Below are positions 7,480-64,000 of a stretch of DNA of 64,000 nucleotides, piece by piece. A program made the position numbers and the translations under genes. How positions within the stretch are numbered: position 1 is the first letter of the stretch; each line of letters opens with the position of its first letter. Origin of the DNA: a virus. Location: the IMG/VR virus record IMGVR_UViG_3300033997_000478, positions 260,429 to 324,428 of that record. The stretch is one strand, 5' to 3'. The notes beneath the pieces are model-generated. The model was not told where the DNA came from and did not search any database. It was given only the letters and a program-made list of their open reading frames with translations.

Positions 7480-10400
7480 ATGTCTCTCAATACGCTCAGC
7501 TTCAAGGGTTTTGCTTTCACTGAAAACCCGCAAAGCGCGCAGTACGTCTCCGTACGTACCGGGCCAGGGGATGAGGACTTTGCCAACGTACTGCTGAGCG
7601 ATCTGCGTACCTTCATCACCGCAGAGGTGGAGGTTCGTCTTGCTGCTCTGGAGGCCGGCGAGTCTGGGGGCGCCAAGCCCTCCATCTGGCCTGTGGCCCG
7701 CACGATGACGCTGTCCGGTCCGGTGACCGGTTCGGCTTCGTTTGACGGTTCGCAGAACTTCTCACTGAGCACGTCCATTGCCGACGGTGCTCTGACGATT
7801 GCCAAGACCAATGGTCTGCAAGGACAACTGACCACGCTGCAAACCAACATCGACGGCAAGGCGCCGTTGGTGCACAGCCACATCGGCACCCAGCCGAACC
7901 TGAACTCGATTCCCGGCGGCGTCCTGCCGGTCGGCGCCGTTGTAGGTAGTGGCTCCACCGCTCTGGACGGATTCACCAACCCGTTGTACCTGTCCGCCTA
8001 TGATGGACAAACGCGTGCCTCGCAGTTGATCTTCGACAATGCTACCGATGAAGTAGGCTTCCGCCGCTTCACCGCGGGCAACTGGCGATCGGTTCGCAAG
8101 ATCTGGACTGAAGCTAACTTCGATCCGAGTGTCAAGGCCAGCACCGGCGGTAACACCTTCACCGGTCTGAACACCTTCGCCAATGGTCGGGTGGTGATCC
8201 GTGCTGACGTGGCTGCCACGCAGTCGGCGTTGCAGTTCCAGGATGAGTCGGCTGTGCTGCAAGGCATGGTCTACTACAACCGCACCGACAAGGCCATGAC
8301 GATCTATACGGCCGCAGGTGATGGCACCTCCAAGGTGATGTCACTCAAGCCCGACGGTCTGTACTGGGATGCCAAGAAGGTTTGGCATGCGGGGAACTTC
8401 GATCCGGCTACCTACAACTACATGACGGTCACGCCGACGTTGTACAACGCCAGCGCAGGTATCAACTGCGACAATCTGGTTGTCGGCTCCAAGGCCTTCG
8501 TGCACAACGCCAACACCAACACGCCGGGTACGGCCGCCACCTATTGGCACATTGAAACTGTGCAGCTGGGTGATGTGGCTGGTTCGCTGATCCAACGCGC
8601 CTACGCCGCTGACAGCAGCGAAATGTGGACGCGTGTGTATAACGCTGGTTGGAAAGCCTGGCGGCGGGTGTGGACCTCGGAGAACTTCAACCCGGTCAAC
8701 AAGCTTGACGCCAACGCAGCGGCAGCCAGCGCACAGAAGCTCACCATTGCGCGTACGATCGCCCTGACGGGCGTCGTGACCGGTAGCGTGTCCTTTGATG
8801 GTAGCGCCAACGCAAGCATCACCACGGCCTTCTCAGGCGATGTCACCAACAGCGCCGGTGGCTTCATTGTTGCTGGCGGTGGTGCGGTGCAGGTTAACAA
8901 CCCCAACGCCAGTTCGGCTTCGATCAAGATGGACTGGAACGGCGATATGCCGCGCTTGCGCATCGGTGGATCTGGCACCGGCTCGAACGCAACGTTCTTG
9001 ATTGTGGGTCAAAGTGAAAAGACCCGCATGTCGTTGGACCTCAACGGCAACGCCATGTTCGCCGGCAATATCCTGGCCAACGGTGACAAGACGGTCTATC
9101 ACTCTGGCAATCTGGACTTGACTGATTTCACCCGCGTGGGCACCACCAACCTGGGTAAGGTCGGTTCCACTACGGTTGGTCCGGGTACGCTGAATTCACC
9201 TGCGGCATGGTCCAACCTGCCCACTGGCTTCTCCAGCTTCGTGCTTAACACCGTGGGCACGGCCAACGGCGCACCGGGTGACGGCTACGGCTACTTCCAC
9301 AAGATCGCCCAGCGTGATACGCAAGGCGGTTGGGCCGGTATCTGGCTGCCGCATCTGTTCAATGGCGCACAAGTCATCCAGGCGTACCTGGGTGGTGCCA
9401 ACGACAGCACCTCATATGCTCGCTGGGCTAAGATCTGGAATGACACCAACCATGGTGCAGGTTCCGGTCTGGATGCTGACTTGCTCGATGGTAAGGATGG
9501 CGGCTACTACCTGAGTAAGGACACCCTGCTCGGCGGTGCCAACATGGCCCGCAATGGTAGCTTTGAAAGTCAGTACAACAGCGGTCGTCCGTACTTCTGG
9601 AACTTGGGTGGCAATGCCACCGGTCGCAGTGGTTCGTTCGTGGTCAGCGCTGCTGGTCCGGCGGGTGTCGGTTTCCGCATTGATGCTACTTCGGCTACGG
9701 CCGGTCAGTACATCGACATGATGCAACCGCTGCTGGAAGACGGTACAGACCCGCGTCCGACTTGTGTACCCAATCGCCCCTATACGGCCAGCTGCGACTT
9801 CCGCGGCACCGAAGGTGCGATGGTGCGCATGTACATCCAGTTCTACGACAGCAGCGATACGGTGATCGCCACGGCCACCTCGCAGGACTTCACCGCTTCG
9901 GCCACGAACTACCAGCGCGCTTTCGTGACTGGTCGCGCACCGGCCAACGCTGTCAAGCTGCGCATGTACTGTCCGCGACTGCACAACAACGGTCTGGGTG
10001 GCGCCACGGTACCGCTGTTTGTGGAATACGCAGGTGCCTCGCTTCAAGAAGGTGACAGCTACAGCACCTTCCATTATCCGGGCTCCTCGTTCCTGCGCAA
10101 TGACATTGCCAATCTCCAGGACGTGCGCCTGGCAACGGGCAATGGTCGCGGTCTGCGCTTCTTCGACAACGAGCAGTACAAGATCTTCATGTCGGTGGCC
10201 ACCGACGCAACCTACGGCGGCCGAATCGCAGGTGAAACCACCTCCGATTACAACATGTACTTCCGCATGGCCAGCGGCACCAACCGCGGTTTCGTGTTTG
10301 AGAAGGACAACGGCAACAAGCTGCTGTCGATCAATCCCAACGGTGTGCGTTCGGCGGTGGACATCACCGCACCGATCATCACTGCAACCACGCAGTTCCA

Positions 10401-52106: not shown

Positions 52107-55100
52107 TTACTGGTGACGCACATCGATCGGCACACCACCGTTGAAGGTGTTGGTCGGTCGCGTGCTCTCCAGCCTTGCCGAAGACGGCGGAGTCGGAGGC
52201 CGTTGTTCGGCAACGGTTTGTTGCTGGGGTTGTTCTGCTTGCTTCTGGGTCTGACTGGAGCCCTGTTGTTGCATCAGGGGTTTACCTCCATTCATCTGCA
52301 TCCGCAGCAGCGTGACGATGTCGCCGGTATTGATGCGAGTCTGGCGTGCCTCTTCCACCAGGTTGGCCAAGAGCTGGGTGCTCTGGTTTTGCTGGGTAGC
52401 GGACACCTGACTTTCGTAGCGGTTCTGGATCTCAGTCTGACGAAGCGTTTCAGCGCGCTGGGCGCGTTCACGTTCTTGGGCCTGGAACTTAGCCGCCTCA
52501 TCGCTGCTTTGAGCAGCCGAGGTTGCACTCAATGCCGAGGTGCTGGAAATGTCCGGAGCCGGCATAGCCGACGAACCGGAAGGACCATTACCTGCACCCT
52601 GCGCCAGAATACCACCACCGGTCTTCTGCATGTCCGTCGCTTCGGCCGGAGCCTGACGCGGAACATCGGAGATTTCCGTTTCCGGCTTGGGCGGATTGAC
52701 ACCGCCGCCAGCGTTGGCTGTCGTGGTCGTGGTCGTGGGCGGGTAAGCCGAGTCGTTACCGACATTGGGCTTATTCCCCGTGGTATCCACGCTGGCCGTT
52801 ACGCCAGAGAAGTCTGCCTTACCTGCAGCGGCCGGAGCCGTGCCGGTGGGCTGCATGACCTGACCACCCAAACCTGCATCGCCGCCGTAGCCCTTGTAGG
52901 CATTGAGCATCTTGCGTTGCAGATCTGCGTACACCGCACCGATGGTACGGGGACGACTGTAGTCCGGCACCATCCTCTTACCTTCGCGCTTGGATTCGTA
53001 GAACACCCAAGCGTTGGCAGCGGCTGCACGCGGGAACGCCTTGACGGCATTCTCGTTGGGATCCTTGTTCAGGAACTGCGCAGCGCCTTCCGGACCGAGG
53101 AAGTGAGCCATGTACATGTCAGTAGCCGTCAGCGGCTTCTTGACCTTCTTGGACACGTAACTGTAGTTGGACTTCAGGTACAGCGCACCCATGATGGCAT
53201 TGGCACGCGAGTCCAGCGGACCGGTACCCGGAGCGATGCCGTACTTGCTGGCATGCTGGGCCATCGACTGACGCCACGTACCTGGGATGAACTGATACAG
53301 ACCCTGAGCTGCGGACGTACCGGGGCTGCCCAGCGGGTTGAAGCTGGACTCCACCATGCACATCGCATACAGCATGTTCGGATCGGTGCCGGTCATCTTG
53401 GCTACGGCATCGAGCATCGGCTTGAGCGCCGCAAAACGCTGCTTCACCGGCATCGCCGCCAGTTCCTGGTTACTGGGGATCTGGGGCAACGAATTGATGT
53501 CGCCGCCCGTACCACCGCCAGGATGCTGAATAGCCGTGCCGCCGGTCAATGCACCGTAGACCGCCTGACCCGGCGCCAACGCAGCCGAAGCTGCCGAAGT
53601 AGCTGCACCGGACCAATCACCAGCCTTGGCTTGGTTGTAGGCCTGCGAACCCAGGTCGGTCACCGTGGTGGCCACGTCCTTGACACGGTCGATTTGACGA
53701 CCCAGCCAGTTACGCTCACCACTCTTACCGCCGAGGAAGTCATCCACCTTGGCCTGACCGCGACCCATGGCATCGAGCATGTTGGCAATCATGCCCTTCT
53801 TGTTGGCTGCCTGAGCGTCCAGGCCATCGACCTTGGTTTCGCTCATCACCTTCTTGCTGACAATGCTTCGCAGAGCCAGCAGTGAACCCGTCGTTGCCGC
53901 TTGATCGGTCAGCAGCTTTTCCTGGGCACTCCACGGGGAAATCGTGACGTACCAGACCGAACGACCATCATCGTCCTTGGCTGCCATGATGTCTTGAGCC
54001 ATCTGAACCAACTGCTCACCCTTGAGGGTTTTCTCAGGTGCCGTCAGGTCGACGTTCTTGGCAATCTTGTCAGCCGAGCGAATGTAGGCAATCGCAGTGG
54101 GCAGGAAGCGCTTGTTGAACCAGATGCCCCAGCGCTCACGATCATCCGGCGTATTCGGCGTCAGGCCGAAGAATGCGCACGCCGTGGAGTAGGTAGCGTC
54201 CGTGTCCATGTTGTAGTATGCGCTACCGTCACTTGCCAGCTGGGTGTTCTTAGCCACGAACATTTCCAGAGCAATCAACGCACGGACACGATCGATCTCC
54301 AGTTCTGCCAGACCGTAAGTCCGCAGACGGATCGCTTGCAGCGGGGTGATCTTGTCGGCACGACCCAGCAGCGGCGGGAGTAGACCCGTCAGCGGCTTGG
54401 TCAGGAGAATCTTGCCCTTCAACGATTCAGTACCGCCAGCCTTGTTAGCCAGCTCCTGATTCTGAAGTGCCAGACCTTCCTTCTTGACCAACTTGTTGTT
54501 GTACCACTCAGCCGCCCATTGGGCTTGCATGCGGAACTGAGTCGGGGCCATGTCAGCCAGCTTGTTCAGCTTGTCGCCAAAGCGCTTGGACAGCGGACCG
54601 CCCTTGCCATCGACGTTGCACGACTTGACCGCCAGCAGGTAGGCCTGTTCGATCTTGTTCGGGTCATCGATGATGTCAGCCGGATCACCGGTCGGAGAAG
54701 CCAGTACAGCGTAGACGCTGCGGCTCACTCCGTTCCAGACACTGTTGACCAGCTTCAACCGCGACTCGGGCGGCAGCTTGTCAGTGTCATTCATCATGTC
54801 CAGCGAACTGGTCATCATGGAGGCCTTGAAGTTCTCCCCCGACACCTTCTTGGACGGATCGATCTTGTTCAGCTCGATGATCCATTGGGTGTAGACCGGC
54901 AAGAAGCGATTGGCGTACCAAGTCTGGAACGAACCGCGATCCAGCGAGGAGCCGCCGAACCACATCATGCCATCGTGGATACCAAACAGCTCGTAGGCGT
55001 CATTCATGGTGAAGTCGTCACCGCCACCCAGACTGGTCGACACGTTACCGGTCGCCTGGTCGATGTGCGGGGCCAGCTTTTCTTCCAGCTTGACAACCTT

Positions 55101-58100
55101 TTCCACCAACGAACGATTGTTGGACTCGATACCGTACTGAGCGAAGCGGAAGGCACGGATGGGGTTGAACTTACCGTAGCGAGCACCGCGGTAGGACTGC
55201 CAGGTTTGCAGCGAGGCTTGGCCGATCACAGCTGCAGCGATTGCTGCCGGGATAGCCCATGCCGGCGCCGTACCCACTGCGACAGTACCGCCCGCTGCTG
55301 CGGCCGTACCGCCAGCGGCCGTAGCCGCTGCACCACCGGCGGCTGCCGTAGCGCCACCAGCTGCGGCTGCGCCGCCACCTGCTGCTGCAGCACCGCCGGC
55401 CGTGCTGGCAGTGCCGGCCAGACCCACTGCACGAGCACCCCACATGCCGCCTTGGGCGACCATGCGAGCAGTCATTGCAGTATCGGCCACCTCAGCGCCC
55501 TTATCCAGAGCACCGCGAGCTGCGCTGTCCTTACCCACGCCGAACTTGTCCATCAACCAACCGCCACCACCGGCGAGCACGCTGGTGATCATCAAGCCCT
55601 TCGCGCTGAACAGGCCCTTGCCCTTACTCAGCAGGCCCTTACCGCCACGGAACAGACGAGCCAGAGCGCCCGCCTTCCCCTTCGGGATCGGCGGCGGGTT
55701 ACCCTTGGGAATCGGCGGCGGACCGCCCCGACCAGCACGTCGACGACCCTTTCCGCCACGACGGTTGTTCTTTCCCTTTTCCTGGGTCTTGCCCTTCTCG
55801 TTCTTATTCTCGCCCTTCTTACCCTTCTTGTCCTTTTCATCGCCGCCGTCACCACCCATGTAGTAGGTGTTGCCGCCGCCGTCACCGGAATCCTCGTCGC
55901 CTTCGTCCTCATCAGACGAACCGCCGAACAGACCCTTGGACTTATTTGCGATCCAGGACATCAGGGCAGCTACCGGGCCCTTCTTTTCTTCAGCCTTCTT
56001 CTCTTCGGCTTCCTTCTTCTTTTCGTCCTCAGCTTCCTTCTTGGCGAACTGCTCTTGCCACGAACCCTTACGGGGCGCAGCGCCGGGCATCCGCTTATCC
56101 AGCAGCTTGTAGATCTTCTCCAGCAGGTCCACTTGCTTAGCCCCGTGCTTTTCGAACGGGTTGAGCAGTGCACCGAGGAACTTGAAGGGGGCACCGAGCA
56201 TTCCACCGCCCAGACCCATCAGACCGCCGAACAGCTTACCATAGCCCTTCATAGCGCCGCCGAACAGAGCGGCAGCACCCTTGACCACACTACCAGCCGC
56301 GCCAGCCAGAGCGGTGAGGACCTTCATCGCCGGAGTCTTCAACGGCATCCCCCAACGACCAACCAGACCCGGATCATGGATCTCGCTGTCGTACAGGACC
56401 GTCTTGTCCGTCGCCGACGCCTTAGCGCCTTGCTTGGGCAGCTCCTTAATCTCACCGTGGATGTCGTCGTAGTCACGCACGACCTTACCCGGCTTCTTGT
56501 CATTGGCGTTGTAGTACAAGCCGGACTTCATCTTGCTCGCCTTCAGGCGCGGCTCACGCTCGCCCTTGACGTAGACGTCCACCTGCTTGTTCACAGTCCA
56601 CTTGGCCAAATCACCGACCGCGCGGCCAGCGGCACCCAGAATCTTGAACGGGGCGCCAAAGATACCGGCGTAACCACCCAGAACCGTACGGGTCAGCTTA
56701 CCTGCGCCCGTGAGGGCCAGCCGCACCAGACCATTGGGGCCCTTGGCGAAGATACCCTTGTCGAAGTCTTCCTGACTCAGCGCCGTGGAACCATCGACCA
56801 AGTCGGTGACCGGGCCGGTGACATCACGCCACGAGCGGATCTTCTTACCAGAGTTCTCATCGCGGTATTGGCCGAGCTTGATCTTCTGCGCCGTCAGTGC
56901 CGGCTTGCGCACGCCTTGGACGTAGATGTCCTTGGTGCCACGTAGTACGTCCATGGTCTTGTCCATGATCGCACCAGTGATCGAGGTGCCCACCTTGGTG
57001 ATACCGCGGGCGCCACTGAACAGGCCGCTGTAGATTCCCTTGGTGTAGGCCCACATCCCCTTGCCCAGACCCTTCGCACCGGCCCATGCACCGCCCACGC
57101 CCTTGACGAAGATCGTATCCAGAATGCCCTTACGGAACATCCCGGCCTTTTCTCCGTCCTGACCCTGGGTGGCCAGCAAACCGGCGATCGCCTTCAAGAC
57201 TTCCAGCTGTTCGCTGTTGAGGCGAATCAGTTCTGGACCTTCAGCAAAAGTGGCCTGCATCATCGTGCCGTCAGCAGCTGCCGCATTGCTGGGCGTATAG
57301 GCTGCTTGATGGATTGCACGACGACGGCCGAGGATGGACTGTGCGCGCGCCTTGGCACGCTCAACCACGCCACGCAGGAACTCACCACCGCGACGTGCCA
57401 GCTTGGCCAGATCACCGGTGGTGACCACGGTCTCGCCAGTTTCGTCAACGACCGGACCTGCGATCTTGTCGACCGAGTCAATCGTCTCGTTGGTGATGGC
57501 GTCCTTGTAATCGCCGTTGCGCATCTTGGTGCCGGACAACAGGACATCGCCGGTAGCGCCGTTGACCACGTCAAACGCACCATCCTCCGGAATCGGCGGC
57601 GGTTCGGATCGACGGAAGACGTCACGGATACCGGAGGCAACCTTGTTGATCGCTCCGCTGACGTTGAAGGTGTAGACCTTACCGTCCAGATCCACCAGAC
57701 CATGGGAGAGCACGCTCGGGTCGATGACGACCTCGTTGGTGGTCAGGTCGCGCACAGCGCCCTTGACGTCCTCCCACTTCTCCAGGATCTTGCCAGTGGC
57801 AGCATCGGCGTATTGACCCGCACGCAGCTTACCTGCTTGCAGAACCGCCTTGGAACCACCGGCCACGTACAAGTCCTTCAGCTCCCGGCCCTTGGTGCCG
57901 AAGAAGTCCTTGGCCTTATCGGTGGCCATGTCTTTCAGACGATCGGTAGCCGAACGCTTCTCCATCTTGATGTCATCGAAGGAGGCGCTGCCGACCATGT
58001 CCAAGAACTTGGAAACCTTCAACTTCGGACGAAAGCCTTCGAACTCCAGCAGACCCGCTTCTTCCAGCAGTTCCTGCATACCAGCCGAGACGTAAACGCC

Positions 58101-59876
58101 TGCTGCCGAAGAAGGAATGGCCGAACCGAAGTTGAGGTTGTTGAACTGCTCATCCATCTGGTCCATCCACACATGGTCGGTGGAACCGTCTTGACGACGG
58201 CCGGACTTGGAGAAGATCTGTGACAGTTCCGCCTTCGCGGTCGGGGAGAGCTCGGGGGTGTTGATGCCGGGGTTGATGTAACGGTTGATGTCAAACTCGA
58301 CACCTTCGGCCGAGTCCATCTGGATCTGGCGGCTGAACTCACGCATGGTGTTGGAGGAGATCGGACGACCACCTGCCAGCGCCTTGATGAAGTCCTCCAC
58401 GTCGCGACGGGAGGCAGCCAGCTTTTCCGGTTCAGCGATGCGGCGGGTTATGTCCTTGGCCGCTTCGCTCATCGTGGTGAACTTGCCACGCTCGATGTTG
58501 TACACCTGACGCTTGGCGTTGGGGTCCAGCACCCGCGCGGTGTTGTGTTCGATGCGACTCAGCAGGCCGGGGATGATTTCCACCAGTGTCTTGCGGGACA
58601 GCTTGTCCCACGATGCCGGCTTGTCCATCGCATCCAGACCGTGGCGACCAATACTGGTGTCCAGTCGGTGCGTGCGGATCTGGTCCTTGATGATTTCCTC
58701 GATCAGGCCGCCCAGACCCTCGCGGCTGGTAGCCGTACGGGCCCACTTGTTGGCCTTCTGCGGGATGTTGCGGATAAAGCGGTTTGCGCGCGCACCCTTC
58801 TGCGCCAGCTGCGGATACTTCTTCTCCAGCCACTGACGGACCGGACCGGAAAGCATACGCACTGCGCCTTCAGCTGCCATACCGCCGCCAGCCTGCATCA
58901 GTACTTCCAGCAGCGGCATGTCATCGGCCATCTCCGAGCCCATGATGCCGTCACGACCCATACCGGCCAGGTCCTTGACGTTATCACGCAGTCGCTTGAA
59001 GGTGTCGCCCATGAAGCGCTTGGCGTAAGCGCCAGCCGAGTCTTGCAGGTTACCCAGCAGACGTTGGCGGAAGCTGTTGGTTGCCGAGTGCATGATGTTC
59101 TGCTTGGCGATGTCCGGCATGGCCGTATTCTTCACCAAGTCCACCAAGCTCATGTGGGTGCGACGAGCGGTCTCCACTTGCAGACGGAACTGGTCACGCT
59201 GTAGGTAGAAGGATCGGGTCTGCAACTCCAGCATACGTCGCTGGACGCGGTTGTTGACCTGATCGTTGTAGGCATTGAGCTGAGCCACGCCGGCTTGGAT
59301 CGCAGCCAGATGTTGAACCTGCTTGCGCGAGGTGCGCAGGTTCTGGCCGTGTAGGACCATGCGTTCAACGCGATCTTCAGCGCGATAGCGCGCGTCGATC
59401 TCGTCTTTGACTTCGAACACGCTGGCGAGCGAATCCTTCAGATCCTGCTCGTTCTGCTCGGCCGCCGTCATCGACTTGTACTGCTCACGCGGCTTGCCAA
59501 ATTCTTCCCACGCATCGTGAGTGAACTTGGGCGTGTACGTCTTCAGCTTCGGCAGATTGCGCTGGACAATACGACGCAGGGCCGGCATTGCCGGCTCCAT
59601 CTCCCTGCTGGCCGTATTGTATAGTTCTTCCGCCTCCCGATACCGTTCTTCAGCAAAATTGTAGACCGAACCGTAACCTCGCGGCAACGCATTCGAAACA
59701 ATCGTGCCAATCATCGCCGGAGACTTGAACGCATCGCGCGCACCAGCTGCAAAGCTGGAGGTGGCGCGGGCGATCACGCCTCGGTTGGTTCTCTGATTGA
59801 CAGGCGCGAACGGATCGGGGAAATCGTAATCAAGATCGCGACCCCAGTCGGAGTCGTCGAGTTGTTTCTGCGCCAT
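52107..59876 (-). CDS. Giant virion protein with SLT-type lytic transglycosylase domain
   Basis: 2589 residues, gp181-like by layout. Residues 1-650 are helical. About 660-1170 holds four related segments of the type D-[ILV]-YV-x-G, LxAxKxxxGQYxD, W-x-D-[VI]-x-G-x-V, starting near 666, 768, 982 and 1099. Near 1330-1440 is a charged, Lys/Gly/Pro-rich stretch (PPPIPKGNPPPIPKG), then a Gly/Ala-rich hydrophobic part (about 1480-1560). The SLT domain (about 2150-2300) has Glu2176 in AMCMVESSFNP as catalytic acid, then AAQGLYQFIPGTW and AYLKSNY-like motifs. Such domains open peptidoglycan during DNA entry. The end is Gln/Pro-rich. It may double as a tape measure. Confidence 0.85.
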   Translation of the reverse strand: MAQKQLDDSDWGRDLDYDFPDPFAPVNQRTNRGVIARATSSFAAGARDAFKSPAMIGTIVSNALPRGYGSVYNFAEERYREAEELYNTASREMEPAMPALRRIVQRNLPKLKTYTPKFTHDAWEEFGKPREQYKSMTAAEQNEQDLKDSLASVFEVKDEIDARYRAEDRVERMVLHGQNLRTSRKQVQHLAAIQAGVAQLNAYNDQVNNRVQRRMLELQTRSFYLQRDQFRLQVETARRTHMSLVDLVKNTAMPDIAKQNIMHSATNSFRQRLLGNLQDSAGAYAKRFMGDTFKRLRDNVKDLAGMGRDGIMGSEMADDMPLLEVLMQAGGGMAAEGAVRMLSGPVRQWLEKKYPQLAQKGARANRFIRNIPQKANKWARTATSREGLGGLIEEIIKDQIRTHRLDTSIGRHGLDAMDKPASWDKLSRKTLVEIIPGLLSRIEHNTARVLDPNAKRQVYNIERGKFTTMSEAAKDITRRIAEPEKLAASRRDVEDFIKALAGGRPISSNTMREFSRQIQMDSAEGVEFDINRYINPGINTPELSPTAKAELSQIFSKSGRRQDGSTDHVWMDQMDEQFNNLNFGSAIPSSAAGVYVSAGMQELLEEAGLLEFEGFRPKLKVSKFLDMVGSASFDDIKMEKRSATDRLKDMATDKAKDFFGTKGRELKDLYVAGGSKAVLQAGKLRAGQYADAATGKILEKWEDVKGAVRDLTTNEVVIDPSVLSHGLVDLDGKVYTFNVSGAINKVASGIRDVFRRSEPPPIPEDGAFDVVNGATGDVLLSGTKMRNGDYKDAITNETIDSVDKIAGPVVDETGETVVTTGDLAKLARRGGEFLRGVVERAKARAQSILGRRRAIHQAAYTPSNAAAADGTMMQATFAEGPELIRLNSEQLEVLKAIAGLLATQGQDGEKAGMFRKGILDTIFVKGVGGAWAGAKGLGKGMWAYTKGIYSGLFSGARGITKVGTSITGAIMDKTMDVLRGTKDIYVQGVRKPALTAQKIKLGQYRDENSGKKIRSWRDVTGPVTDLVDGSTALSQEDFDKGIFAKGPNGLVRLALTGAGKLTRTVLGGYAGIFGAPFKILGAAGRAVGDLAKWTVNKQVDVYVKGEREPRLKASKMKSGLYYNANDKKPGKVVRDYDDIHGEIKELPKQGAKASATDKTVLYDSEIHDPGLVGRWGMPLKTPAMKVLTALAGAAGSVVKGAAALFGGAMKGYGKLFGGLMGLGGGMLGAPFKFLGALLNPFEKHGAKQVDLLEKIYKLLDKRMPGAAPRKGSWQEQFAKKEAEDEKKKEAEEKKAEEKKGPVAALMSWIANKSKGLFGGSSDEDEGDEDSGDGGGNTYYMGGDGGDEKDKKGKKGENKNEKGKTQEKGKNNRRGGKGRRRAGRGGPPPIPKGNPPPIPKGKAGALARLFRGGKGLLSKGKGLFSAKGLMITSVLAGGGGWLMDKFGVGKDSAARGALDKGAEVADTAMTARMVAQGGMWGARAVGLAGTASTAGGAAAAGGGAAAAGGATAAAGGAAATAAGGTAAAAGGTVAVGTAPAWAIPAAIAAAVIGQASLQTWQSYRGARYGKFNPIRAFRFAQYGIESNNRSLVEKVVKLEEKLAPHIDQATGNVSTSLGGGDDFTMNDAYELFGIHDGMMWFGGSSLDRGSFQTWYANRFLPVYTQWIIELNKIDPSKKVSGENFKASMMTSSLDMMNDTDKLPPESRLKLVNSVWNGVSRSVYAVLASPTGDPADIIDDPNKIEQAYLLAVKSCNVDGKGGPLSKRFGDKLNKLADMAPTQFRMQAQWAAEWYNNKLVKKEGLALQNQELANKAGGTESLKGKILLTKPLTGLLPPLLGRADKITPLQAIRLRTYGLAELEIDRVRALIALEMFVAKNTQLASDGSAYYNMDTDATYSTACAFFGLTPNTPDDRERWGIWFNKRFLPTAIAYIRSADKIAKNVDLTAPEKTLKGEQLVQMAQDIMAAKDDDGRSVWYVTISPWSAQEKLLTDQAATTGSLLALRSIVSKKVMSETKVDGLDAQAANKKGMIANMLDAMGRGQAKVDDFLGGKSGERNWLGRQIDRVKDVATTVTDLGSQAYNQAKAGDWSGAATSAASAALAPGQAVYGALTGGTAIQHPGGGTGGDINSLPQIPSNQELAAMPVKQRFAALKPMLDAVAKMTGTDPNMLYAMCMVESSFNPLGSPGTSAAQGLYQFIPGTWRQSMAQHASKYGIAPGTGPLDSRANAIMGALYLKSNYSYVSKKVKKPLTATDMYMAHFLGPEGAAQFLNKDPNENAVKAFPRAAAANAWVFYESKREGKRMVPDYSRPRTIGAVYADLQRKMLNAYKGYGGDAGLGGQVMQPTGTAPAAAGKADFSGVTASVDTTGNKPNVGNDSAYPPTTTTTTANAGGGVNPPKPETEISDVPRQAPAEATDMQKTGGGILAQGAGNGPSGSSAMPAPDISSTSALSATSAAQSSDEAAKFQAQERERAQRAETLRQTEIQNRYESQVSATQQNQSTQLLANLVEEARQTRINTGDIVTLLRMQMNGGKPLMQQQGSSQTQKQAEQPQQQTVAEQRPPTPPSSARLESTRPTNTFNGGVPIDVRHQ

Positions 59877-59941: not shown

Positions 59942-62075
59942 ATGGTCCCCCGTATGGGTTTCGAAGCCGAAGGCGATGACTGGGACGTCCCAGTTCCACC
60001 CAGTCGCCCAACGATGAGCGCGCAGGCCCCGATGGGTCAGCCGTTCAATTTGAACATCCTTCAGATTACCCCGCAGATGCAGGCGCTGATGAAGCCTGTC
60101 ACCAGCGTGGACTACTACGAAAACGTCAAGCGAGATCTGGATGAGAACGGTCTGTTCTCGATCAGTATCTTCGGTCGTATGGGCGATGAAGCCCGCGACA
60201 TGCGTTTCTCTTACATCGACATCAAGACCGAAATCTTCCACCCGGTGATCTACGATCGTCTGGTGAAGCTCAAGAAGCTTTATGGTGGCATCATCGAGGG
60301 TAAGCGGTACGCCCTGTGGGATGACAAGCAGAAGGACTTTGTCCCCGCCAATGAATTGGACGGTCAAACCGGTTATGCCTTCTTCTGCTCGCACTGGAAG
60401 GACATCGTCTTTACCCGCAACAGCTCGGACAAGCGCGACATGCGTGCCCAGCTGGTGGAAAAGTTCCGCGACGTTGCCCTGACCTCCAAGATCATCGTGA
60501 TCCCGGCTGGTCTGCGAGACATCGAGGTCGACGATGAAGGGCGTGACACCGTCGGTGACATCAATGCCCTGTACCGCAAGCTGATCTCGGTCTCAGCACG
60601 CATCCCCAATCACGACAACGTCAAGAACGACCCGTCGCACGATCTGGCGCGCATGCTGTTGCAGACGGCGTTCAACGAACTGTACAACATGCTGGAGACG
60701 ATGATCTCCGGCAAGCGTGGTATGTTCCAGGCCAAGTGGGCTTCGCGTAACGTGGTGGACTCCACCCGTAACGTGATCACCGCCATGGACACCTCGGTGG
60801 AGCACATGACTGCGGTCAATGCCCCGCGACCGACCGATACCTACGTCGGCATGTGGCAGCTCTCCCGTGCGCTGGCCCCGCTGACCATCCATCAGCTGAT
60901 GACCACCTATCTGAGTCAGATCTTCTCCTACGGTGAACGCACAGCCCGACTGGTTGATCCGGTCACCCTGCGCGCTGAAATGGTGGACATCTCCTCCGAC
61001 GCCCACGACATGTGGAATACGGTGGAAGGTCTGGAGAAGGTCATTACCTCCTACCGCGAACTGTCGCTGCGCGACAAGCCGGTGATGGTGGACGATCGCT
61101 ACCTCGCCTTGATCTACGTCCCTGAAGAAGAGCGCAATGGCTACAAGTCGTTCCGCATTTTCTCCGACATCGAGGAGCTGCCCTCTTGGGCCAGTCGAAA
61201 GGACGTGCGACCGATCAACCTGATGGAGTTGCTCTACCTGTCCGGATACAAGATCTGGAACGATCAGGTGGGTAGCGTCACCCGTTACCCGATTTCCGGT
61301 ATCGGCAGTATCTATCCAACCACCGTCTATGCCAAGACGACCGTGGTGGGTGAGGTGCGTCGTGAACTGGGAATGGACTGGGAACCGCTGACTGACGATA
61401 ACACTTCGTTGGCACCGGAGTTCCCCACCTACGAGCCGCTGGCCTATCAGGACAGCCTCGTGATCCACAGTACCCGCCTTGCGGGTCTGGGCGCCGATAA
61501 CCCGTGGTTTCGCCACGGGGATGTCCGCCGCAACTGCGAAGTTGCGTGCGAGTTCCCTTAATTGCTGGAAACTCCTGTTAAACCAGTTGGCTACAACGTG
61601 GGGCGGAAGCCCGAGCGTGAATGCTTGAAAACAACTGGGTAGGGACAATCAGCAGCTGATCCCCTCTATGTACCTGCTTTTAAGCGTGGAGTGTGGGGAG
61701 AGTTCAACGACTATCCCGTGGCTGGGAGTACATCGCAATGGGCGATGGAAATAGGGAAGCTCTCGTTGAGTGTCGGGCAATACGCTCCGAGAGTAAGATA
61801 TAGTCTGGCCTGCATGGAAACATGCAGCAGTGTGAGCTGAGTTGCGGCAGCGTAGCACGCGCTGAAGGGGAAACGACCTTCGGCGGAACATAGCGTTCGA
61901 TGGTGACACCGCAAGTTTCATCGCATGTGTGACCGATGCCAAAGATACGGTCAAGCAGTACTTGAACTCGCGCAAGGCCTACGTCGATCCGATCGGCGGC
62001 CTGCGTACCTCAGCGGGTGTGCATACGACGGAACTGTTCCTGCGTAGCTTCACCGGCGATCCGATCGAGGAGTAA
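59942..62075 (+). CDS. Phage RNA polymerase beta' fragment, split by a group I intron
   Basis: Two exons, 59942-61498 and 61896-62075, together 578 residues. Near residue 75, GLFSISIFGRMGDEARDMRF matches the beta' N-terminal pattern (GLFxxRIFG). Residues 509-523 read HSTRLAGLGAD|FDGD once the intron is removed, restoring the ADFDGD motif whose three Asp (519, 521, 523) hold the catalytic Mg2+. Unspliced, translation stops at 61559 after 20 odd residues. The neighbouring transglycosylase suggests the virion polymerase subunit (phiKZ gp180 type, from memory), which enters with DNA and transcribes early genes. The protein ends 55 residues after the motif, so the rest of beta' must come from another gene. 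Confidence 0.85.
61499..61895 (+). ncRNA. Self-splicing group I intron without an internal gene (397 nt)
   Basis: The core elements are visible in order: P-like TTAATTGCTGGAAACTCC at 61558-61575, Q-like AATCAGCAGC near 61650, R-like GTTCAACGACTATCC near 61715, and S-like AAGATATAGTCT near 61800. GACTAT in R and ATAGTC in S pair to form P7. The 5' exon ends in U (61498) and the intron ends in G (61895), as required. A hairpin CCCGTGG/CCACGGG (61501-61519) lies at the 5' end. The borders were set by restoring ADFDGD in frame; P1 pairing was not resolved. Confidence 0.88.
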
Positions 62076-62077
62076 CA

Positions 62078-63376
62078 ATGAAGACCAAGCAAGACCTCGA
62101 CTCGCTGATCGTGTCGATGGAGCAGCTGGAACAGCTGCAGAACTCGATGGAGATCACCTCCCAGATCAGTCTGGAGAGCATGGATCAGTCGAGCATGTAC
62201 ATCTACGGTAACAAGCTCAACGAGATCCGGCAGGGCGTCGGTTTGGAGGCGCTGGAGTTCCAGGACGTCAAGGACATGTTCGCGGCCATGGGTAAGACGG
62301 CTGTGGCCATGGGACAGGGTTTCATGAAGTTCTTGGACAAGGTCCACGAAACCGTGGATAGCACCTACCTGGTCAAGACCAAGCGTATCCGCAAGCAGTT
62401 CGAGGCGTTGGGCGAGGCCAACCCTAAGAGCGAGCAAATGGAGCGCCCGGCCATTGCCAAGAACCTGTCCATCGGCGGCCAGTTCCCGGACAACTTTGCA
62501 CAGGTCACCAAAGACCTGATCGAGTTCTCCAAGCACACCACCGCCACGGCCATCCCGGAGTTGGCATCGATGACCCGTCGCTGCGCGCAGCGCTTGGAAG
62601 CCAAACGCTTCATGGGTAACGATGCGTTCCAAGCTGAGGTCATGGAACTGGCGGCGATCATCGCCTCGTCCAAGACGCCGATGCAGCTGTACAGCTTGGA
62701 ACAGACTCAAGAGCTGTATCCGGGTAACCGCACGATCTTCAGCACGATCAAGCCCAAGCGTCCGTCGCGTCCGCCGAACATCTCCAACGCCGCTGCGCGT
62801 AAGGTGGTCGATGCGGTCAGCCACATGACCATCGGTATCGTCTCCAACCCCAAGTCGGCCAACGGCAAGGGACCGACGGTGATTCCGGTGCTCTACCCGG
62901 CCGAAGCCCTGCGGATGCTCAACTACACCGATGCCCTGTTGCACGAGGTCATCCGGGTGAACCAAGCGGCCAAGCCGTTCCGCAATGACAAGCATCCTTC
63001 GACCATGTCGCTGATGCTGTCTGGGTTCTACCACGGGGTGGCCAAAACCTTCGATGACTTCTGGACTTCCTCGGAAGACGGCTTTGGTGAATTCGAAGGT
63101 GCGCAAGGTGGAGAGATGCGCCGCATCCAACCCGGTAAGAAGGGAATGATGGGCGTGTTGAATGATGGTATGCAGAGGACTGTTTCCAACCTCAGCATGG
63201 AATCCAAGGTGGACGAGGACGAGCGTCGTGTTCTCGCTGTCTGGGTGGCCCGTTATCTCAAGCTCTCCGCGGTGGATCACATCCGCACCGCCCAAGCTCT
63301 CCAGATCCTCCTGCTGGCTGTTGCCCGCGGCTACATCGAGTATCTCGAAGAGAGTCTGAAGTACTACGAGCAATGA
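62078..63376 (+). CDS. Probable virion/internal head protein (432 aa)
   Basis: No family recognised with certainty. The protein is nearly all helical; the first 40 residues contain SME and SLE sites (QNSMEITSQISLESMD) resembling the S/A/G-x-E cleavage motif of phiKZ-type prohead proteases. A basic helix (TKRIRKQFEALGE) follows, then a long helical body ending EYLEESLKYYEQ. It begins two bases after the beta' stop. In phiKZ relatives a structural gene sits between the beta' and beta genes of the virion polymerase (from memory), which fits. Confidence 0.58.
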   Translation: MKTKQDLDSLIVSMEQLEQLQNSMEITSQISLESMDQSSMYIYGNKLNEIRQGVGLEALEFQDVKDMFAAMGKTAVAMGQGFMKFLDKVHETVDSTYLVKTKRIRKQFEALGEANPKSEQMERPAIAKNLSIGGQFPDNFAQVTKDLIEFSKHTTATAIPELASMTRRCAQRLEAKRFMGNDAFQAEVMELAAIIASSKTPMQLYSLEQTQELYPGNRTIFSTIKPKRPSRPPNISNAAARKVVDAVSHMTIGIVSNPKSANGKGPTVIPVLYPAEALRMLNYTDALLHEVIRVNQAAKPFRNDKHPSTMSLMLSGFYHGVAKTFDDFWTSSEDGFGEFEGAQGGEMRRIQPGKKGMMGVLNDGMQRTVSNLSMESKVDEDERRVLAVWVARYLKLSAVDHIRTAQALQILLLAVARGYIEYLEESLKYYEQ

Positions 63377-63416: not shown

Positions 63417-63438
63417 TATCCTGTCAAAAGGTGTCCCT

Positions 63439-64000
63439 ATGTCCGAACCGTTGCTCGAGCCGTCGATGGCTCTGAGCCTTGAGGAGTTCGTCGCGCTCAG
63501 CAACCCGGCTGAAGAAGATTTGCAGGTCAGCCTGGAGGCTCTCCAGTATGCCCCGTACTTCCGTCAGTTTGGTGCCATTCGTGCTGTGCAGCTGGCTGCC
63601 CCCAAGCTCAACAAGCTGGCCGACTTGCAACTGAGCAAGCTGGCCCTGATCCACTACCTGCCGCAAGAGCGTACCGATCTGGGCATGATGCCCGACGATC
63701 CGCTGCTGAACAACTACATGCGGTTGATGATGACCGAGCACATCACCGAGCTGGGTGATTCGCTGGGCAATCCTCGTCCGCTGCCGATGCCGGTGTCACA
63801 GCTCAAGCGTGACTACCGTCGTCTGAACCCGCGTGCTCGTGAGATCACCAATCTCGAATCGACGATGCGTGATGAGATCACCATCGTGGTGGAGAACTAC
63901 GCACTGCTCAACCACCTCTACCGCTACCCGATCAACTACTTCCGCCAGTACTACATGTGGTGGAACGTGCAGGCAGCACTGTGGAAGAACGTTGGCCGCA
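63439..64000 (+). CDS. Start of an unrecognised gene (3' truncated)
   Basis: An open frame of 187 codons from the ATG at 63439 to the right edge, with AAAGGTGTCCCT just upstream. The visible part is helical, with early SLE-type sites (MALSLEEF, QVSLEAL). It also has aromatic-rich stretches such as YPINYFRQYYMWWNVQAALW. I see no motif that identifies it. By position after beta' and a structural gene, it could be the beta N-terminal subunit of the virion polymerase (phiKZ gp178 type, from memory) or another virion protein. Confidence 0.55.
   Translation, partial: MSEPLLEPSMALSLEEFVALSNPAEEDLQVSLEALQYAPYFRQFGAIRAVQLAAPKLNKLADLQLSKLALIHYLPQERTDLGMMPDDPLLNNYMRLMMTEHITELGDSLGNPRPLPMPVSQLKRDYRRLNPRAREITNLESTMRDEITIVVENYALLNHLYRYPINYFRQYYMWWNVQAALWKNVGR

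Follow-up and report, generated by a model that had tools for sequence, protein, structure and literature searches.

Homing introns favour conserved active-site codons (PMC12908238), and the closest described counterparts of the locus reported here lie in the RNA polymerase genes of jumbo phages. In the chimallivirus PhiPA3, a group I intron interrupts the gene for the beta subunit of the virion polymerase (gp211/gp210/gp209) at conserved active-site aspartates and contains the gene for an HNH nuclease, gp210, which nicks phiKZ gp178 (PMC11620839). One recent paper credits PhiPA3, but not phiKZ, with an intron in its RNA polymerase gene (PMC11878797). The phiKZ protein gp180 is a subunit of the virion polymerase and is said to contain the DFDGD motif (PMC10612078). 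In the non-virion enzyme of phiKZ (gp55/gp56/gp56.1), a group I intron with an HNH gene inside adjoins the equivalent DFDGD loop, 3 nt before the motif.

The window analyzed here (the whole stretch of viral DNA, 64,000 nucleotides in length) contains an interruption of the same general kind. Like the PhiPA3 intron, it is a group I intron located at conserved active-site aspartates of a chimallivirus virion polymerase; unlike that intron, it lies in the beta' rather than the beta subunit, at a different site, and without a nuclease gene. It shares with the phiKZ gp55 intron its position at the DFDGD loop, but belongs to the virion rather than the non-virion enzyme, lies within the motif rather than before it, and lacks the HNH gene.

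The interrupted gene and its phage

The interrupted gene and its neighbors are arranged as follows.

52107..59876, minus strand: 2589-aa virion/tail protein with a transglycosylase (SLT) domain (Pfam SLT, E=1.3e-8; phrog_3201, tail)
59942..61498, plus strand: exon 1 of the virion RNA polymerase N-terminal beta' gene (phiKZ gp180-like), 519 codons to GLGAD (ORF; phrog_2986; 68% identity to LucasX)
61499..61895, plus strand: group I intron, 397 nt, no ORF (RF00028, 62.6 bits; unique in-frame junction; covariation with 11 related introns)
61896..62075, plus strand: exon 2, FDGDTASF...DPIEE stop, 59 codons plus stop (64-73% identity to exon 2 of L010 and LucasX)
62078..63376, plus strand: 432-aa protein of unknown function, encoded between the genes for beta' and beta (weak family matches only)
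63433..64000, plus strand: start of the virion polymerase beta gene, gp178-like (phrog_3148, E=3e-33)

Over residues 33-572, the predicted spliced protein belongs to phrog_2986 ('RNA polymerase beta subunit'; E=6e-193). Its profile finds matches among beta' chains of known structure from phages and bacteria, and the annotation of its PhiPA3 homolog, gp212, notes similarity to phiKZ gp180. Full-length homology and the DFDGD motif are thus accompanied by neighbors of the gp178 and gp181 types (phrog_3148 and phrog_3201); in the phiKZ gene order, the 2589-aa protein sits in the place of gp181, the tail-associated endolysin. Because the gene is flanked by this giant tail/transglycosylase protein and by a gp178-like beta gene, we assign it to the virion enzyme, as an earlier note on this DNA had done from the same surroundings. 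Judged from its sequence, it is the N-terminal beta' subunit gene of the virion RNA polymerase of a phiKZ-like phage.

The record from which the window is taken is 324,428 nt long and has a 127-nt exact repeat at its two ends (63874-64000 of the window and L006:1-127), and is therefore probably a complete circular assembly, which the class given to it in IMG/VR may contradict. The rest of the beta gene is found where the record begins (L006) and is itself interrupted by an HNH-bearing group I intron. The same genome encodes a homolog of chimallin, phiKZ gp54 (C1:47604-49001; E=1.5e-33, 29% identity), a gene that places the phage among the nucleus-forming chimalliviruses.

A group I intron within the metal-binding loop

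The upstream reading frame (59942-61561, 539 aa) enters the intron for 20 codons and then reaches a stop. A covariance-model search with Infernal matched the Rfam group I model RF00028 at positions 61497-61827 with a score of 62.6 bits (E=6.6e-15; the gathering score is 50 bits), covering 253 of 253 model positions, and this was the sole Rfam match above threshold within the 64-kb window. Deleting 61499-61895 in silico joined codons GAT and TTC in frame and yielded a protein of 578 aa (..RLAGLGAD|FDGDTASF..), which places the 397-nt intron between the codons for D519 and F520 (GAU|UUC), the first two of the DFDGD metal-binding loop. When both cuts were slid together by 1 to 5 bases in either direction, ADFDGD was restored in no case; these alternative splice sites are thereby eliminated, and the protein alone fixes the intron boundaries. 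The landmarks expected of a group I intron are found at both ends, with U61498 at position -1 and G61895 as the terminal base.

No endonuclease gene is present inside the window intron, where the longest open frame spans 58 codons, and a degenerate endonuclease was rejected for the same reason. The intron thus lacks the encoded homing endonuclease that marks a mobile group I intron. The earlier note had proposed a group I intron inside ADFDGD, free of any gene, lying exactly between two codons of the motif, with pairing P7 strands and with GLGAD joined to FDGD in a frame of 578 residues; the covariance-model match, the in silico deletion and the fold described below agree with that proposal throughout.

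The interrupted locus recurs as an identical copy in a second IMG/VR contig (L009), and in the diverged phages LucasX and L010 the same boundary is occupied by an intron (405 or 401 nt). Since the interruption recurs in this contig and in two diverged phages, an assembly error is very unlikely to lie behind it.

RNA structure of the intron

The paired elements assigned to the intron are listed below.

61496..61525, plus strand: P1, formed by exon GAU and intron A (61496-61499) with UGUC (61522-61525), with U61498.G61523 at the splice site (whole-intron MFE fold; local folds of six ORF-less introns)
61553..61758, plus strand: P3, 61553-61558 with 61753-61758, and P4, 61563-61568 with 61649-61654 (P3 covariation)
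61709..61805, plus strand: P7, GACUA 61709-61713 with UAGUC 61801-61805 (identical in 12 of 12 introns)
61714-61717 with 61724-61727 (P7.1) and 61731-61736 with 61742-61747 (P7.2), plus strand: hairpins between P7 and P3 (sequence and fold)
61760..61827, plus strand: P8, 61760-61765 with 61788-61793, and P9, 61810-61816 with 61821-61827, with a GAAA loop (Rfam match, fold)

The intron together with its exon ends folds with a z-score of -4.15 relative to shuffled sequences. In the unconstrained fold, the exon GAU pairs with an intron GUC, so that U61498 is positioned opposite G61523. P1 is short, comprising 4 bp at the splice site that are followed by an extension hairpin (61501-61508 with 61512-61519) as its cap. 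The same pairing of the last exon U with a G in P1 appeared in local folds of all six ORF-less introns at this loop, including that of L033, where the insertion site is shifted by 1 nt (GAC-U|UC). The Rfam model places P1 on the hairpin at 61501-61519, which does not contain the U.G pair, and that placement was not used to locate the splice site, which is fixed by the exon pairing and by protein homology.

Across the 12 aligned introns, all six pairs of P3 are formed in every sequence, with compensatory changes in five of the six. The covariation score of the whole structure was 0.371, as compared to a shuffled mean of 0.181 (0 of 500 shuffles); the highest score obtained by sliding was 0.144. 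P7, being invariant in all 12 introns, contributes nothing to this score; P7.2, P8 and P9.2 pair poorly in the distant rows of the MAFFT alignment. The P7.1 and P7.2 hairpins (61714-61727 and 61731-61747) are also found in the LucasX and L010 introns. Hairpins of this kind between P7 and P3 are a defining feature of subgroup IA introns, and the window intron fits that subgroup.

The ribozyme core, the U.G pair in P1, the P3, P7 and P9 pairings, the terminal G, the in-frame junction and the existence of intron-less homologs lead us to regard it as highly probable that the interruption is a self-splicing, ORF-less group I intron in the DFDGD loop of a chimallivirus virion beta' subunit, and probably an immobile descendant of a homing intron. 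Its removal would most likely follow the standard two-step transesterification, in which a guanosine cofactor (GTP) would attack after U61498, and the freed 3' OH of the exon would then attack after G61895, ligating the exons. The joined exons would encode the full-length 578-aa subunit. Translation of unspliced message would end at the stop 20 codons into the intron and would give a subunit without FDGD, which is expected to be inactive.

Introns recur at the same loop

The query was an alignment of 10 sequences, the window protein by itself having reached only two viral loci. The alignment-based search of IMG/VR identified 80 loci, of which 74 have an uninterrupted D[FYH]DGD motif and six (L009, identical to the window, and L010, L027, L033, L058 and L059) are interrupted, all at this loop; the alignment of beta' homologs thus locates the motif at the junction, as the earlier note had supposed. 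Among isolated phages, LucasX, phiKZ and the Vibrio phages Yong XC31 and 2 TSL-2019 are interrupted at the same D|F boundary, which is also the site in further metagenomic phages (in one of them shifted by 1 nt). In EL and phiKp_32 the interruption is found 6 nt downstream (DxD|GD). HNH_3 domains are present in the intron genes of phiKZ (gp179), XC31, 2 TSL-2019 and EL, and the introns of L027 and L058 contain ORFs related to the HNH nucleases of those four. The introns of the window, LucasX, L010, L033, L059 and phiKp_32 are free of ORFs. The last of these, in a Klebsiella phage (L024:4438-4817; DFD|GD), scores 37.5 bits and is missed at the Rfam gathering level.

Introns are scattered unevenly over the gene tree: one is present in phiKZ but not in L089, despite a near-identical exon 1, and L028 lacks an intron within the gene clade that comprises the window, LucasX and L010. 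The introns of the latter three form one clade (support 100/100). The intron tree is otherwise poorly resolved, and the introns at this site (site 1) require about six changes on it. A single common origin of all introns at the site was rejected on these two grounds; given the patchy presence on the gene tree and the approximately six changes on the intron tree, several independent gains are likely, their number not being fixed by the trees. By these comparisons, the window intron is a further example of recurrent insertions at the polymerase metal-binding loop rather than a unique case.

We propose that the window intron descends from homing introns that repeatedly invaded active-site codons of jumbo-phage polymerase genes, and that it would be common to the window phage, LucasX and L010, having been kept since precise loss is rare. 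It would persist because no deletion other than an exact one within the DFDGD codons would be tolerated. Lacking an endonuclease of its own, the intron has probably lost the capacity for independent movement. We infer both this immobility and inheritance, as opposed to re-acquisition, within a clade in which L028 is without the intron.

Other polymerase introns and possible mobility in trans

Besides the beta' intron, the genome of the window phage contains three group I introns, all with an HNH gene: two are associated with DNA polymerase, and the third interrupts the virion beta gene. The beta-gene intron (L006:2899-4234 in the same genome, C1; 74.1 bits) follows ..NDD and encodes a 307-aa HNH endonuclease that, among those compared, is closest to PhiPA3 gp210 (36% over 314 aa). 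It is related to the PhiPA3 intron and located after the same DD, and in alignment its site is apparently the gp210 site. The other two HNH introns (L007:5880-6181 and 7669-7952, minus strand; about 71.9 and 73.7 kb of C1) lie in or next to a DNA polymerase gene (phrog_3011). One of them is 82% identical to the core of the beta intron, which suggests that introns have spread inside this genome. In the virion enzyme, then, the genes of both catalytic subunits are split at conserved residues of the catalytic core, as is the case in the phage of L033.

These neighbors raise an alternative in which the beta' intron is still mobile, being moved in trans by the HNH nuclease of the beta-gene intron approximately 4.9 kb downstream, or hitchhiking by co-conversion. 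The presence of that HNH-bearing intron in the same genome is in keeping with such movement, as is the L033 phage, in which the beta' gene (shifted by 1 nt) and the beta gene (after DD) are likewise both interrupted (L033:9272-9575). The beta' introns of the window/LucasX/L010 clade are, moreover, more alike than their exons (79.8% versus 70.6% and 84.2% versus 73.6%; about 80-85% versus 71-75%), but that gap may merely reflect constraint on the ribozyme. LucasX and L010, however, keep the beta' intron, and whole-record searches of both found no beta-gene intron; nor is the beta' intron of the window phage closely related to the one in its beta gene. We therefore consider continued mobility in trans unlikely.

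A broader reading holds that chimalliviruses tolerate introns in the active-site codons of their polymerases to an unusual degree, owing to transcription within the phage nucleus, where it is uncoupled from translation, and that some clades keep ORF-less introns as a splicing checkpoint on the packaged polymerase; we consider this quite improbable.

Possible regulation and separate translation

The earlier note had also suggested that splicing might tie production of the polymerase to late infection. Under such a scheme, splicing would be delayed or conditional and active virion polymerase would be made late only. An uncut message cannot encode FDGD, so splicing would be required for an active subunit, and the window/LucasX/L010 clade retains its intron without an ORF. 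We found no regulatory element in the intron that would tie splicing to late infection, however, and saw neither an effector domain nor an alternative structure. Close relatives do without it, namely L089, whose exon 1 nearly equals that of phiKZ, and L028 from the window/LucasX/L010 clade, and phiKZ Gp180, whose gene has an intron at this boundary, accumulates steadily from 5 to 30 min after infection in the manner of middle-gene expression (PMC10612078), which argues against the suggestion. A regulatory gate of this kind is thus very doubtful. It is extremely unlikely that the two frames are translated separately without splicing to form a split beta' subunit, as the LucasX annotation (LUCX_4 and LUCX_5) and the split polymerases of jumbo phages elsewhere (PMC7598289) might suggest, since the break would lie inside the metal-binding loop, precisely where the two frames come together again, covariation accompanies the conservation of the group I core, and the deposited polymerase chain for phiKZ gp55 matches the spliced form.

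That chain served as a positive control for the in silico approach. The phiKZ non-virion beta' gene gp55 (L106) is interrupted at PN|ADFDGD with the HNH gene gp56 inside; its splicing in silico gave 488 aa with DFDGD at 417-421, the positions reported for that subunit (PMC8287921), and the predicted product is identical at 488 of 488 residues to the chain in PDB 7OGP (PHIKZ055 + PHIKZ056.1). This is an agreement with an experimental sequence rather than an observation of splicing. LucasX carries a second intron in its non-virion beta' gene (L105:2950-3400, LUCX_60/LUCX_61), upstream of DFDGD at about KA|PNADFDGD, and in its annotation each of the two polymerase beta' genes is broken up into hypothetical proteins.

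Significance and comparison with known systems

The window intron splits the metal-binding loop of an enzyme that has to accompany the phage DNA into the next cell, and the phage would therefore depend on splicing. More generally, the loop is a recurrent and largely unannotated target, hit in virion beta' genes at GAD|FDGD (or 1 nt later) and at DFD|GD, and in non-virion beta' genes just before DFDGD. Several deposited genomes, including those of LucasX and phiKZ, annotate the gene as two proteins, with the result that the active site is absent from the predicted subunit; this affects structure prediction, cloning and knock-down design.

The phiKZ genes gp71-73, with which the earlier note had drawn a parallel, do contain an HNH-bearing group I intron, and thus resemble the window locus as a jumbo-phage polymerase gene with an intron of this class. 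The parallel fails on position, however: the phiKZ gene encodes the C-terminal beta subunit of the non-virion enzyme, and its intron follows ..TDFHGGN, so that neither the subunit (beta rather than beta') nor the site (not DFDGD) is equivalent.

EL (gp184/gp185) and Klebsiella phage phiKp_32 are closer, being interrupted in the same gene and the same metal-binding loop, but their introns lie 6 nt later (DxD|GD), and that of EL contains an HNH gene, while that of phiKp_32, like the window intron, has no ORF. The EL genome paper (Hertveldt 2005) reportedly tied HNH endonucleases to group I introns.

The phiKZ GenBank record (L020, AF399011 180500-190500) lists gp180 and gp179 as separate CDS and no intron. 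In the literature covered, which included few subscription papers, we found no published description of a phiKZ gp180 intron; an earlier report of it, or of the EL gp184 intron, is possible. The statement that, of the two phages, PhiPA3 alone has an intron in its RNA polymerase gene (PMC11878797) differs from what is seen here, in that a group I intron with a core scoring 92.2 bits splits phiKZ gp180 at D|FDGD (about 187,786 to 186,346 of AF399011). That intron is found in the same gene and at the same D|F boundary as the window intron, from which it differs in its length (1443 versus 397 nt) and in containing the HNH gene gp179. By gene and position, then, the true equivalents of the window intron are phiKZ gp180/gp179 and the corresponding loci of several other phages, which together mark a recurrent insertion site.
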